Assembly: GCA_013822345.1 (NCBI GenBank)
Contig: PNKH01000028.1
Coordinates: 1 to 64,000, forward strand
DNA: 64,000 bases
Reading direction: 5' to 3'
From: Isosphaera sp.
GTDB taxonomy: Bacteria; Planctomycetota; Planctomycetia; Gemmatales; Gemmataceae
Within the stretch, counting starts at the first letter, position 1; each line of letters opens with the position of its first letter. This document shows, one piece after another, positions 16,061-52,471 of this stretch. Both the position numbers and the translations under genes were made by a program. The notes under the pieces were generated by a model. That model was not told the origin of the DNA, did no database searches, and saw only the letters and a list, made by a program, of their open reading frames with translations.

Positions 16061-16711
16061 TTAGGGGTAGCGGCCGACTTCGCGGAGGCGCCTCGCGTAG
16101 GGCGAGTTCGGGCTGTGGCCGGGATGCAGCGGCCAGCCGTCGTAGGGCTGCACGAACGGCCAGGATTGTCGCGGGAAGCCGATCTTGACCGGGTTGCGTT
16201 CGATGTAGCCGACGGTCCGCCGCACCTCGTCCGGGTGGTCGAGGAAGACTTTCCACCCGTGACCCGCGGTCCAGATCGGGTGGTCCGCGTCGCGGTGCCG
16301 CCCCCGGATCAGCCTGTCCCGGCTGACCTGAACCAGGGTCTCGATCATCTCCTCGGCGACGTGCTTGTGCTTGCGGATCAGGATGTGGACGTGGTCCGGC
16401 ATCACGGCGCAAGCGTAGCAAGTGTATTGCTCCCGCGCGACGACCTCGGCGAAGGCGTCGGCGATCACCGCCCGTTCCGTCTCGTCGAACGTCAGCAGCG
16501 GATGCCGCAGCAGCTCCGCCGCCCGCTCGTAGAACCGCCTGACCTCTCGGCCGGTCGGCTGGACCTTCTTGCGACCGAAGTGGATGTCGCCGAGCTCCGC
16601 CAGTACGTCGTTCCGGAGTTCATGCGACCCGCTCCCGCGCGGGTCGTTCGGGAGCCACCAGCCGTAGGCGGTCCAGATCAGGTGGTGGGCGATGACCAGG
16701 GGATTCGGCAC
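16061..16711 (-). CDS. REP-associated tyrosine transposase (RAYT, Y1/HUH family)
   Basis: 216 residues. The N-terminal block HHLIWTAYGWWLPNDPRGSG is typical of REP-associated transposases. The HUH metal motif appears as PDHVHILI (about 110-117), and the helix with the likely catalytic tyrosine is VGYIERNPV. These single-strand nucleases recognise and move REP-type hairpins rather than full insertion sequences. The GTG at 16711 is chosen because a GAAAGG ribosome site lies just upstream. A perfect 17-bp hairpin lies 25 nt upstream of the start, and related hairpins are dispersed in the window. Confidence 0.88.
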   Translation of the reverse strand: MPNPLVIAHHLIWTAYGWWLPNDPRGSGSHELRNDVLAELGDIHFGRKKVQPTGREVRRFYERAAELLRHPLLTFDETERAVIADAFAEVVAREQYTCYACAVMPDHVHILIRKHKHVAEEMIETLVQVSRDRLIRGRHRDADHPIWTAGHGWKVFLDHPDEVRRTVGYIERNPVKIGFPRQSWPFVQPYDGWPLHPGHSPNSPYARRLREVGRYP

Positions 16712-16735
16712 GGATGTTCGCCTTTCTGATCAGCT

Positions 16736-16772
16736 GCTCGCGGCTTCGCGCTGTGAGCGCGAAGCCGCGAGC
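16736..16772. repeat. REP-like hairpin beside the RAYT gene
   Basis: Perfect 17-bp arms (16736-16752 and 16756-16772) around a GTG loop. The core is GCTCGCGGCTTCGCG, similar to palindrome family C (GCTCGCGGCGTTGCG). It lies between the transposase start and the end of the oxidoreductase beta gene, so it is a candidate substrate hairpin of the adjacent RAYT. Confidence 0.8.
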
Positions 16773-16786
16773 GGCGAAGACACCAC

Positions 16787-23662: not shown

Positions 23663-23718
23663 GGCGAGCCGCGACCGCCAGGCAGACCCCAACCGCTCCC
23701 TGGCGGTCGCGTCTCGCC
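23663..23718. repeat. Palindrome family I, copy 1
   Basis: 20-bp arms 23663-23682 and 23699-23718 with one mismatch, core GAGCCGCGACCGCCAGG. Related to the element inserted in treY (51312-51380) and to 38249-38309. It lies between convergent genes and may terminate both. Confidence 0.8.
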
Positions 23719-36946: not shown

Positions 36947-38245
36947 ATGGCCGGAACGTGCGTGGTCGGGCTGCAGTGGGGCGACGAGGCCAAGGGGAAG
37001 ATCGTCGACCTGCTCGGCGACACCTTCGACCTCGTCGTCCGGTACAACGGCGGGGCGAACGCCGGGCACACCGTCGTCGTCGGCGGCAAGACGTTCAAGC
37101 TCTCGCTGCTGCCGACCGGGGTCATCCGCCCGAACGTCACCTCGGTCATCGGCAACGGCGTCGTCGTCTACCCGCCGCGGTTCGTCGAGGAGGTCGGCCA
37201 GCTCGCCAAGGCCGGCATCGACCTGTCGAACGGGCTGGTGCTGAGCGACCACGCCCACGTCATCTTCCCGTACCACATGGAGGAGGAACGCCTGGCCGAG
37301 AGTGGCACGGAAGGGAAGATCGGCACCACCGGCCGCGGCATCGGCCCGTGCTACCAGGACAAGGTCGGGCGGCGGTTCGGCGTCCGGGTCGGCGAGCTGC
37401 TGCGGCCGGACCACCTGCGGGAGCGGCTCGGGCAGATCGTCCCGTTCAAGAACCGGCTGATGGCGGCGTTCGCCAACGGGCACGCCGACACCCTGAAGGC
37501 GTTCGACCCGGCCGCGGTCGCCGACGAGTACCTCGGGTACGCGGAGCAACTCCGGCCGTACGTCGCCGACACCTCGCGGCTGCTACAGGACGCGGTGAAG
37601 GCCGGGAAGCGGGTGCTGTTCGAGGCGGCCCAGGGGTCGCTGCTCGACGTGGACCACGGGACGTACCCCTACGTGACGAGTTCGAGCAGCCTGCCGTCGG
37701 GCATCTGGGGCGGGTCGGGGTTGCCGGCGAAGCACGTCACCCGGGTGATCGGGGTGGTGAAGGCGTACACGACGCGGGTCGGCCGCGGCCCGTTCCCGAC
37801 CGAGCTGGACGACGGCCCGGACGGGACCGGCGAGCGGATCCGGCGGGTCGGGCGGGAGTACGGGACGGTGACCGGGCGGCCGCGGCGGTGCGGGTGGTTC
37901 GACGCGGTGGCGGTGCGGTACACGGCGGCCCTGGCCGGCGCTGACGAGATCACGGTGATGCTGCTCGATGTGCTGAGCGGGCTTCCCGAACTGAGGCTGT
38001 GCGTCGCCTACGACCTCGACGGCGACCGGCGGACGCACTTCCCGAGCGACGCCTACGAGCTGGAGCGCTGCAAGCCGGTGTACGAGACGCTGCCCGGGTG
38101 GGGCGAGGACATCACGGCGGCGCGGACGCTGTCTGACCTGCCGGCGGCGGCCCGCCGGTACCTCGACCGGGTGTCGGAGTTGGTCGGGCTGCCGGCGGCG
38201 GTGGTGTCGGTCGGCCCCGACCGCGAGCAGACCATCCGGGTGTGA
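36947..38245 (+). CDS. purA: Adenylosuccinate synthetase
   Basis: 432 residues. The N-terminal GTP-binding block is LQWGDEAKGK (about 8-17), followed by NGGANAGHT, GTTGRGIGPCY and the C-terminal DLDGDRRTHFPSD region. It catalyses IMP plus aspartate plus GTP to adenylosuccinate, the first committed step to AMP. The first gene of a likely operon with uppS, cdsA and phoH; preceded by a promoter and an intrinsic terminator. Confidence 0.96.
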   Translation: MAGTCVVGLQWGDEAKGKIVDLLGDTFDLVVRYNGGANAGHTVVVGGKTFKLSLLPTGVIRPNVTSVIGNGVVVYPPRFVEEVGQLAKAGIDLSNGLVLSDHAHVIFPYHMEEERLAESGTEGKIGTTGRGIGPCYQDKVGRRFGVRVGELLRPDHLRERLGQIVPFKNRLMAAFANGHADTLKAFDPAAVADEYLGYAEQLRPYVADTSRLLQDAVKAGKRVLFEAAQGSLLDVDHGTYPYVTSSSSLPSGIWGGSGLPAKHVTRVIGVVKAYTTRVGRGPFPTELDDGPDGTGERIRRVGREYGTVTGRPRRCGWFDAVAVRYTAALAGADEITVMLLDVLSGLPELRLCVAYDLDGDRRTHFPSDAYELERCKPVYETLPGWGEDITAARTLSDLPAAARRYLDRVSELVGLPAAVVSVGPDREQTIRV

Positions 38246-38248
38246 GCC

Positions 38249-38309
38249 GGCGAACCCGGAGCGTGGCCGACGGGGTGCGTCACCCCCTCCCTCACGGTCG
38301 GGGTTCGCC
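38249..38309. repeat. Palindrome family I, copy 2 (degenerate)
   Basis: Arms 38249-38277 and 38281-38309 pair imperfectly. The right arm, read in reverse, resembles the arm of the palindrome inserted in treY (GGCGAACC...GACCGT). It lies between purA and uppS. Confidence 0.6.
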
Positions 38310-38317
38310 CGAACACG

Positions 38318-49447: not shown

Positions 49448-52400
49448 TCACTCCGGCTCCCGCACCAGAAGGGCGACCGGGAACACCCCCAGCGCCTCGG
49501 CCACCGCGACCGGCCCGGCCGCGGCCACCACCTCCCCGGTGAACGCGTTCGCCCACCGCCCGCCGGCGTACCCCTCGGGCAGTGACACCGCGGTGTCACC
49601 CCACACCCGGCGGCCGAGCGGGAGGCGGTCGCGGTCCGGCACCAGCCCGACCGGGAGCCGCGGCAGCACCACCAGCGCCGCGGCCCGGTCGCCGCCGGTC
49701 CGGAGGAACGCGAACACGTGGTTCGCCTTCGCCCCGGTCGCGGCCAGCGGGACGTACCCGCCGGTGGCGAACAGGTCCGGCCGGTCGCGGCGGCACCGCA
49801 GCGCCCGGGAGACGACGAACGCCTTCGTCCGCGGGTCAGCCGGATTCCGGGATAGTTCCAGGGCCAGCCGGCACGACGAGCGGTCTCCCCGGGCCGCCGA
49901 CTCGTCCAGGTCGCGGAGCCACCCGGCCCGGGCCGCGTAGTCGACCGGCCGGCGGTTGTCCGGGTCGACCAGCGACAGGTCCCACCCTTCCGTCCCCTGG
50001 TACGTGTCCGGGACGCCCGGGGCGGTACACCGGAGCAACGTCTGGGCCAACCCGTTCACCCGCCCGAAGAACGCCACCCGGTCCGCGAACCCGGCCAGGT
50101 CCGCCAGGAACTCGGCCGACCCGTCCGGGTCGAGGATGCGGTCCACGAACGCCGCGACCGCCGCCTCGTACTCCGCGTTCGGGCTGATCCAGCTCGTGTG
50201 GACCTTCGCCTCGGCCAGGGCCTTCCGTGTGTACTGCTTGATCCGATCCCGGAAGCCCTCCCAATCGGCCGAAGGGGTGAAGGGGTGAAGGGGTGAAGGG
50301 GTGAATCCCCCCCCGACACTTTCTGCCGTCACCCGTTCACCCCCACCCCCCTGCACCCCCACTCCGGGAAAAGCCCCGACCAGCGTCTGGTACAGCAGGT
50401 ACTCTTCGTTCGGGTCCGGGGCCACCACCCCGTCCTCGACCTCCACCTTACACCCGCGGTTCAGCTCCGCCCACCGCAGCACCCGGGCGGCCCACTCGGC
50501 CGGCAGCTCGGATAGCACGTTCAGCCGGGCCCGCACGTCCTCGCCGCGCTTGGTGTCGTGCGTCGAAAGCGGGGACAGCCCGCCGGGGGCGGCCGCCCGC
50601 TCCCCGAGGAACCGGTGGACGGCGTCCGGCGACCACCCCCACCGGCCAGGCTCGCCGCCGACCTCGGTCAGCGACCCGAGCCGGTTGAACACGTAGAACG
50701 CGGTGTCCTCGACCCCCTTCGCGGTGACCGGGGCGGTCGCCTGCTGGAATTTCCCGGCGAACCGCCGCTGCAGCTCCCGGTACTCGTCCGTCGCCGGCCC
50801 GCTCGGCGAGTCCTTCAAGAGCACCGTGTCCCGAACGAAGTCGAACACCGCCTTCCCGAGCAGCGGGTTCCGCCGGTACGCCCACCGGGTCGCCTTCCCG
50901 ACCGCCGCCTTGTCCGAGTCGTGGACCGCCCCGTCCACGTAGGACCGGTACACCGGGAAGCACGCCACGACTTCCCGCAGCGCCTTGCGGATGCCGTTCA
51001 GGGTGAAGTCGCGGCTCCGCCGGTCGAGCCGGGCGATCCGGTCGAGCTGGTGGGCCAGGGCGTTCAGCTCGCTCGCCAGCGACCCCTGCGACACCTGCCG
51101 CTTCGACCGGTACACCACCTCCGGCCACGGGTCGTCCAGCCCGGTGAACCGCTGGTAGAAGGCGGTGACCGGCCCCTCCCCGGCCGGGTCGACGAACAGC
51201 CCGTTCGCGGCGTGGATGAACTCGTACCCGGTCGTCCCGTCGCACGCCCAGTCGGCCGGCAACTTCTCCCCGTCCCCGAGGATCTTTTCCACGACGACGT
51301 ACAGCGGTTCGGGCGAACCGCGACCGTCAGGGAGCGGGTGTCGCCCACGAACACCCGCTCCCTGACGGTCGCGGTTCGCCACCGCCTCCCGGTACTCCGC
51401 CTGCAGCCGCTCCAGATACCCCTTCGGGTCGAACAGCCCGTCCGGGTGGTCGATCCGCAGCCCGTCGACCAGGCCATCCGCGGCCCACCGGAGCCACGTC
51501 GCGTGGACGGCCCGGAACACGTCCTCCCGCTCGGTGCTCAGGGCGACCAACTCGTTCACGTCGAAGAACCGGCGGTAGTTGATCTCGTCGGACGCGACCC
51601 GCCAGAAGCACGGGCGGTACGCCTGGGCCTCCAGCAACTCGTCGAGCGCCGCGAAGCTGGCCGGGTCGCCGGGGCTGCCGGCCACCGCCGCCACCGCCCC
51701 CGCCACCGCGCCGGCCGCCTCCGGGAACCGCTCCGGGAGTTCGCCCAGCCGCCGGCGGATCGCCGCGCACTCGACCCGCCCCTCGGCGACCCGCTGCGGG
51801 TCGGGGTCGTCGCGCGGCGGGAGGTTGCGGACCGCGTGCAGGAGGCTCAGCAGCTCGACCGCGGCCGGGTGGGCGTCGCCCAGGTCGGCCCGCAGGCGGT
51901 CGGCCGCCGGGCCGAGGATCAGCCCGTACGTCCGCGGGTCGAGCGGCAGCCGGCTCTCGTGGACGCGGACGTGGAACCCGCCGTCCGCGAACACCGGCAC
52001 GATCCCGCCGGACTCTAGGACCGCCCCGTACTGGTCGCCGAGCACCGGTAGGAGCAGTCGGCCGTGCATCTGCGGCCGCGGGGAGTCGGACCAGGCGATG
52101 TCGAAGTACCCGGCGAACGGGGACGCCGGGCCGTGCTCCAGCACGTCCGCCCACCAGGCGTTCCCCGGGCCGACCGACATGTGGTTCGGGACGGCGTCGA
52201 GGAGCAGGCCCATCCCCCGCGCGCGGAGCGCCGCCGACAGGGCGGCCAGGTCGTCCTCGGTCCCGACCTCGGGGTTCAGGCCGGCGTGGTCGGTGACGTC
52301 GTACCCGTGGGTGCTCCCGGGCCGGGCGGTCAGGAGCGGCGAGGCGTACAGGTGGGTGACGCCGAGGGCGTGCAGGTACGGGACGGCGGCCAGCGCGTCG

Positions 52401-52471
52401 CGGAGGGTGAACCCGGTGTGGAACTGGACCCGGTACGTCGCCCCGGGGACGCGGGCGGTCGGCGTGGTCAT
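49448..52471 (-). CDS. treY: Maltooligosyl trehalose synthase (TreY) with two in-frame inserts
   Basis: 1007 residues; the family is usually about 700-960. GH13 motifs: DAVPNHM, GLRIDHPDGL (nucleophile Asp, about 339), VVVEKILGDGEKLP (acid/base Glu, about 394). It converts the reducing end of maltodextrins to a trehalose unit. Two insertions are visible. Residues about 364-387 are encoded by a 69-nt perfect palindrome (51312-51380). Residues about 702-733 are low-complexity and contain four 8-nt repeats. Flanking sequence reads normally on both sides, so the gene is probably still functional. Confidence 0.92.
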   Translation of the reverse strand: MTTPTARVPGATYRVQFHTGFTLRDALAAVPYLHALGVTHLYASPLLTARPGSTHGYDVTDHAGLNPEVGTEDDLAALSAALRARGMGLLLDAVPNHMSVGPGNAWWADVLEHGPASPFAGYFDIAWSDSPRPQMHGRLLLPVLGDQYGAVLESGGIVPVFADGGFHVRVHESRLPLDPRTYGLILGPAADRLRADLGDAHPAAVELLSLLHAVRNLPPRDDPDPQRVAEGRVECAAIRRRLGELPERFPEAAGAVAGAVAAVAGSPGDPASFAALDELLEAQAYRPCFWRVASDEINYRRFFDVNELVALSTEREDVFRAVHATWLRWAADGLVDGLRIDHPDGLFDPKGYLERLQAEYREAVANRDRQGAGVRGRHPLPDGRGSPEPLYVVVEKILGDGEKLPADWACDGTTGYEFIHAANGLFVDPAGEGPVTAFYQRFTGLDDPWPEVVYRSKRQVSQGSLASELNALAHQLDRIARLDRRSRDFTLNGIRKALREVVACFPVYRSYVDGAVHDSDKAAVGKATRWAYRRNPLLGKAVFDFVRDTVLLKDSPSGPATDEYRELQRRFAGKFQQATAPVTAKGVEDTAFYVFNRLGSLTEVGGEPGRWGWSPDAVHRFLGERAAAPGGLSPLSTHDTKRGEDVRARLNVLSELPAEWAARVLRWAELNRGCKVEVEDGVVAPDPNEEYLLYQTLVGAFPGVGVQGGGGERVTAESVGGGFTPSPLHPFTPSADWEGFRDRIKQYTRKALAEAKVHTSWISPNAEYEAAVAAFVDRILDPDGSAEFLADLAGFADRVAFFGRVNGLAQTLLRCTAPGVPDTYQGTEGWDLSLVDPDNRRPVDYAARAGWLRDLDESAARGDRSSCRLALELSRNPADPRTKAFVVSRALRCRRDRPDLFATGGYVPLAATGAKANHVFAFLRTGGDRAAALVVLPRLPVGLVPDRDRLPLGRRVWGDTAVSLPEGYAGGRWANAFTGEVVAAAGPVAVAEALGVFPVALLVREPE
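50271..50306. repeat. Tandem 8-nt repeat inside treY
   Basis: Four perfect copies of GAAGGGGT plus a partial GAAT on the plus strand, coding for the FTPSPLHPFTPS segment of TreY on the minus strand. Because the unit is 8 nt, loss or gain of one copy shifts the frame. Confidence 0.9.
51312..51380. repeat. Palindrome family I inserted in frame in treY (perfect 30-bp arms)
   Basis: Arms 51312-51341 and 51351-51380 are exact reverse complements with a 9-nt loop. The total of 69 nt is 23 codons, so the treY frame continues. It shares the GGCGAACC...GACCGTCAGGGAG core with intergenic elements at 23663 and 38249. Confidence 0.93.

Follow-up and report, generated by a model that had tools for sequence, protein, structure and literature searches.

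A probable REPIN in frame in the treY gene of an Isosphaera genome and hairpin inserts in enzyme loops of its relatives

The inverted repeat in treY

The gene treY of Isosphaera sp. carries a long inverted repeat and keeps its reading frame. The stretch analysed (hereafter the window) comprises 64,000 nt, positions 1 to 64,000 of contig PNKH01000028.1 (assembly GCA_013822345.1). In it treY, coding for malto-oligosyltrehalose synthase, lies at 49448-52471 on the minus strand and contains a perfect inverted repeat of 69 nt at 51312-51380. The left arm of this REPIN-type element (51312-51341, GGCGAACCGCGACCGTCAGGGAGCGGGTGT, supported by the family consensus from 76 copies) and the right arm (51351-51380), its perfect reverse complement, are 30 nt long and 100% complementary, and enclose a copy-specific loop of 9 nt (51342-51350, CGCCCACGA). 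The initial annotation had described a perfect 30-bp palindrome. The match is indeed perfect, but the size was wrongly worded, as it is the arms that measure 30 nt in an inverted repeat of 69 nt in total. RNA of the region folds with -86.9 kcal/mol (z = -11 against shuffles), and the core 17-mer of the element has 9 matches in the window at up to 3 mismatches versus 1.83 expected, a number that was reached by 0 shuffles.

Probably the repeat, attributed in the initial annotation to an intergenic family, is more precisely a REPIN, a doublet of REP units which as a non-autonomous element can be moved by a RAYT transposase, and which has landed in a loop of TreY and been kept as an extension of 23 residues. 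Two REP units in inverted orientation would form one hairpin, and such a mobile element would be of the type served by the RAYT (TnpA-REP) HUH/tyrosine transposases. A copy may have been inserted as a single-stranded hairpin between a helix of the TreY barrel and the strand bearing the catalytic Glu. The length of the element with its junctions is divisible by three, and in the frame used the arms contain no stop, for which reason it could survive as a peptide extension. The insert would be neutral for enzyme function, and purifying selection would leave copies only in tolerant loops.

The frame of 1007 amino acids crosses the inverted repeat without a stop, and the protein passes the equivalog model TIGR02401 with 920 bits (cut-off 499), in agreement with the earlier claim that 23 residues are added and the frame is intact. 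The identity of TreY also follows from its similarity to solved maltooligosyl trehalose synthases and from its fold, for which the best matches are 6lcu, 6lcv, 5zcr and 1iv8. The insert occupies about residues 365-387 (ANRDRQGAGVRGRHPLPDGRGSP). The alignment proposed earlier bore out its expectation: around the site the 23 residues are absent from TreY of 21 of 21 alignable relatives, the nearest of which in the comparison are 74-75% identical. Close orthologues read, for example, LQSACGGEEPLYVVVEK, where the present protein has LQAEYREAV-ANRDRQGAGVRGRHPLPDGRGSP-EPLYVVVEK. The site is a loop of variable length among TreY relatives, and in two of them (G007 and G016) the same loop holds other repeat-like inserts.

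Invariant residues of TreY are retained on both flanks of the insert, including D341 and E395. According to the AlphaFold model, the insert connects helix 349-369 with strand 391-394 and lies right before the invariant E395, where the initial annotation had placed it. It is modelled as a loop with pLDDT below 50 at residues 373-386, and the extension is thus probably disordered. In (beta/alpha)8 barrels the helix-to-strand loops lie on the face opposite the active site, and a position away from the active site fits the tolerance of the insert. Judged from the sequence, the insert is tolerated as to reading frame and conserved residues. The earlier statement that it is tolerated as a peptide insertion stands to this extent, whereas for enzyme activity the tolerance is presumed.

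A second repeat-type insert was observed in treY at 50271-50363 of the window. It consists of an 8-nt tandem repeat, GAAGGGGT, with an inverted partner, and corresponds to a low-confidence stretch at TreY residues 705-728. In G008 and G010 this stretch, too, varies and contains hairpins.

The repeat family and its candidate mover

The genome is a draft of 226 contigs, 95% complete and with 73% GC. With up to 3 mismatches, a 21-nt core was found at 188+185 = 373 half-sites in its 7.47 Mb and once in the reversed control. The half-sites correspond to about 190 elements genome-wide; 71 of these have two perfect 27-nt arms. The genome-wide count called for earlier thus upholds the proposed repeat family, which is of high copy number and mobile-like. 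For a closer description an unbiased contiguous sample of 1.66 Mb was used, together with selected regions (2.0 Mb in all), and genes were called with a custom simple gene caller. At up to 4 mismatches, which lets some background in among the singles, the 1.66 Mb sample holds 28 elements built like that of treY (-+), 10 in which the nesting is reversed (+-) and 12 singles. With up to 2 mismatches, the 2.0 Mb hold 101 elements (76 -+, 14 +- and 11 singles). Inverted pairs make up 90 of the 101, and their loops measure 3-29 nt. From copy to copy the 29-nt arms show 98.3% identity and the loops 47%. In 86% of copies the arms match perfectly, and among 76 loops 75 are distinct. Eleven changes are present identically in both arms of one copy, mostly at two positions, which indicates that the arms evolve together. 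The family consensus extends at its end to CCGGGCGAACC, and no GTAG or CGTC tetranucleotide is present at the unit end of this consensus; a GTAG tag is characteristic of classical REPs.

Replication slippage or template switching could also create a palindrome on the spot, with no transposition at all. Some hairpins do run a few bases into their flanks (e.g. TCCGC/GCGGA in ThrC, threonine synthase), but about 190 unrelated sites share one 29-nt arm at 98% identity, and we regard this origin as highly unlikely.

The family had been reported to occur also at 23663 and 38249. The former is a member, albeit a diverged one: it lies at 23663-23718 between two convergent genes and has 23-nt arms that are 91% complementary. 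The latter is a chimeric element (38242-38316), whose arms are just 75% complementary. Its right arm resembles the treY family and its left arm the AGCGTG type, so that the family assignment holds for the right arm and for the GGCGAACC/GGTTCGCC ends, which are common to it and the treY family. Arms from two families suggest exchange between REP families. In the 1.66 Mb sample, which includes the window, hairpins with arms of 17 nt or more number 328 and belong to many families.

RAYT genes with elements of the treY family on both sides exist in related genomes (G031:C109, G013, G003:C749 and G004:C89). The encoded proteins are IS200-like, match Y1_Tnp and carry invariant H90-V91-H92 and Y150, i.e. 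the HUH motif and the catalytic tyrosine; their scores fall below the cut-off of the NCBIfam model REP_Tyr_transpos. Searches of the 95%-complete draft itself with Pfam PF01797 and a RAYT profile found no RAYT flanked by the treY family, and the RAYTs of this genome (on C35, on C14 and one in the window) adjoin palindromes of other families. The cognate RAYT may be missing from the assembly or may have been lost; alternatively, the elements may be served in trans by a different RAYT. The RAYT gene of the window (16202-16693, minus strand) adjoins a palindrome of another family, the GCCGCTCGCGGCTTCGC type, at 16733-16775, and related RAYTs in G015 and G003 adjoin GCCGCTCGCGGCTTCGC-type palindromes too.

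Elements inside genes and the reuse of loops

In the 1.66 Mb sample 19 of the 28 -+ elements are intergenic and 8 are intragenic, while 86% of the sequence is coding (p = 1e-11). Coding sequence is avoided by the family. In the 2.0 Mb set, 18 of the 76 -+ elements lie inside genes, all in frame, as follows from the way they were called; this is the tally in coding sequence that the initial annotation had called for. The intragenic share does not differ significantly between -+ and +- elements (p = 0.06). Host genes were identified by family models or solved homologues. They code for threonine synthase, a RarA/AAA ATPase, HisF, an acyl-CoA carboxylase subunit, glutamate synthase, TreY, a YdiJ/GlcD-like dehydrogenase, PurL, RecD2, chorismate synthase (AroC), QueG, an ABC ATPase, an aminotransferase and a TIGR03936 protein. 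The inserts of HisF and PurL align to gaps of solved homologues, and HisF has a double insert, 39 residues beyond solved HisF. A second close copy of ThrC, RarA, HisF, PurL or AroC was not found in the assembly, so the interrupted genes are presumably the working ones. The claim of direct evidence for movement into genes thus stands as regards presence within genes; movement itself is suggested by copy number, presence and absence among relatives and the RAYT association.

As the genome is a draft of a metagenome bin, an assembly artefact at the repeat has to be considered. However, many genes keep their frame, the loops are unique, and other assemblies, near-complete ones like G014 among them, contain similar inserts. 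An artefact is therefore very improbable.

Among the 18 intragenic pairs the frame of the second arm gives HPLPDGRGSP in 15 and TRSLTVAVRP in 3; the third frame has a stop. Given that the first two frames are equally open, the bias is significant (two-sided binomial p = 0.0075). Together with the very stable RNA hairpin, it could speak for a selected functional peptide, for example a loop that serves interaction or regulation, or for a pause in translation caused by the mRNA hairpin. The inserts, however, lie in unrelated proteins, differ by species and are absent from many orthologues, and the same bias would be expected if hydrophilic loops alone are tolerated. We consider selection for a function improbable.

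Families differ in their entry into genes. Those with GGCGA ends enter genes, while the GCCGCAAGCGGC and GGCAGACAGGAATG families almost never do, despite more open frames. Open reading frames were for this reason rejected as the cause of gene entry. The intragenic share is 0/38 in family C, 0/20 in D and 1/30 in E against 13/68 in A+B+H (Fisher p = 9e-5, with a post hoc grouping).

Comparison with relatives has shown that the same loops are occupied by different palindromes. In ThrC hairpins with different arms lie in the same 4-residue linker in G014, G011, G003 and G005, and eleven other genomes have empty or short linkers. RarA carries different hairpins in G009, G015, G005, G003 and G004, and long repeat-like inserts in others. 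AccCT, GlcD, PurL, RecD2, QueG and HisF behave likewise, in fewer species. In orthologous genes 18 of 21 hairpins (arms of at least 20 nt) fall within 40 amino acids of the site used in this genome, against 3.1 expected (p = 4e-13); the uniform placement behind this expectation is a crude null because inserts are tolerated in loops alone, and hairpins from related species cannot count as wholly independent. In a FastTree tree of two genes, several nodes of which are weak, occupied and empty species are interspersed, a pattern that calls for several events of gain, loss or replacement. Most simply, RAYT-type hairpins would be supplied steadily, and the tolerance of the proteins would act as a filter.

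Two other readings of this pattern have to be weighed. According to the first, each loop received an ancestral palindrome early in the genus, which was later overwritten by gene conversion or template switching among families with GGCGA ends, so that the apparent repeated insertion would be turnover. The ThrC elements of this genome (G000) and of G014, G011 and G003 have GGCGAACC ends in common, lie in similar frames and use the same 4-residue linker, and the window contains a chimeric element. On the other hand, the interspersion of occupied and empty species argues against it, as do occupants that have no common end sequence (G005 ThrC, G013 RarA and the GAAGGCGG types), and we hold this reading to be unlikely, though well ahead of a functional peptide. 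The second reading is about as doubtful: core-enzyme loops could be docking sites shared in the genus and repeatedly entered by several unrelated RAYT-type hairpin families, through directed insertion or because the flexible sequence is useful, the proteins being continually re-tagged with peptides from mobile DNA.

In L296/G014, L304/G013 and L359/G008 the same loops hold long inserts, among whose peptides are PTPPAPLPKGKG and PSPLRGGVGEG. These inserts apparently stem from further repeat families and are not simple perfect hairpins.

Relation to known repeat systems

REPINs and their RAYT transposases are well established (Bertels and Rainey 2011, PMC3116915). The treY family resembles them in its short palindromic units of high copy number, in the inverted pairs that form a hairpin with a variable spacer, in its mostly intergenic position and in the RAYT gene flanked by the same units, here in related genomes. 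It differs from them in arms with almost perfect complementarity along about 30 nt, and in the lack of a cognate RAYT in the draft assembly of its own genome. In P. fluorescens SBW25, 14 of 1,067 most-abundant 16-mers overlap genes (PMC3116915); unlike there, a quarter of the hairpin-form copies are intragenic here, an unusually high share.

In Rickettsia the palindromic elements called RPE lie in frame in genes of conserved proteins and are translated as extra peptide (Ogata et al. 2000, reviewed in PMC2229807). The present case is similar, as read from the reading frame alone. The RPE, however, measure 105-146 bp, have no known mover and occur in a reduced intracellular genome (PMC2229807), while the treY element has 69 nt, belongs to a RAYT-linked family of a large GC-rich genome and does not qualify as an RPE, a type specific to Rickettsia. 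REP dimers of the GTAG/CGTC type within ORFs encode 20-30 amino acids, also in PVC bacteria (Opitutus terrae), and different REPs at about one site have been reported in a single case, recB of Xanthomonas (PMC3733652). The present family differs from these in its CCGGGCGAACC ends, and the recurrence of inserts in the same loop is seen in most of the host genes compared. Among the papers searched for the peptide and the core, none names the family of the treY element or its peptide.

The analysis adds a RAYT-linked REPIN family that often sits in frame in core enzymes of a GC-rich, planctomycete-like genome, and loops that are systematically used again by different families. Two phenomena that are usually kept apart are thereby joined, namely RAYT-associated REPINs, which are thought of as intergenic, and protein-coding palindromes, which are known mainly from Rickettsia. 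Empty, occupied and differently occupied loops exist in single-copy enzymes of one genus (threonine synthase, RarA, HisF, PurL, RecD2 and QueG), and thus the supply of new protein segments by mobile DNA, and its cost, become directly testable.

Different phyla can share a short REP sequence unchanged over 24 nt. The exact 24-mer CGAACCGCGACCGTCAGGGAGCGG was found in at least 63 stretches from Planctomycetota, Acidobacteriota, Armatimonadota and Proteobacteria/Legionellaceae, many of them metagenome bins whose placements may err. By our own estimate about 0.002 matches of 24 bases would arise by chance in 257 Gb, so that none is expected. The pattern of both arms had no match in named genomes; the single 24-mer did match, and its named hits suggest a placement of the present genome near Gemmataceae. 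In an Abditibacteriaceae contig (L387, from an Armatimonadota MAG) 17 nt separate the exact 24-nt core from one end of a RAYT frame, and a degenerate inverted copy lies at the other end, so that the frame is partly bracketed. Transfer of REP-RAYT pairs, contamination of bins or strong constraint may account for a core shared across phyla. In L366-L428, which come from several phyla, the core often stands as a single REP instead of a hairpin.
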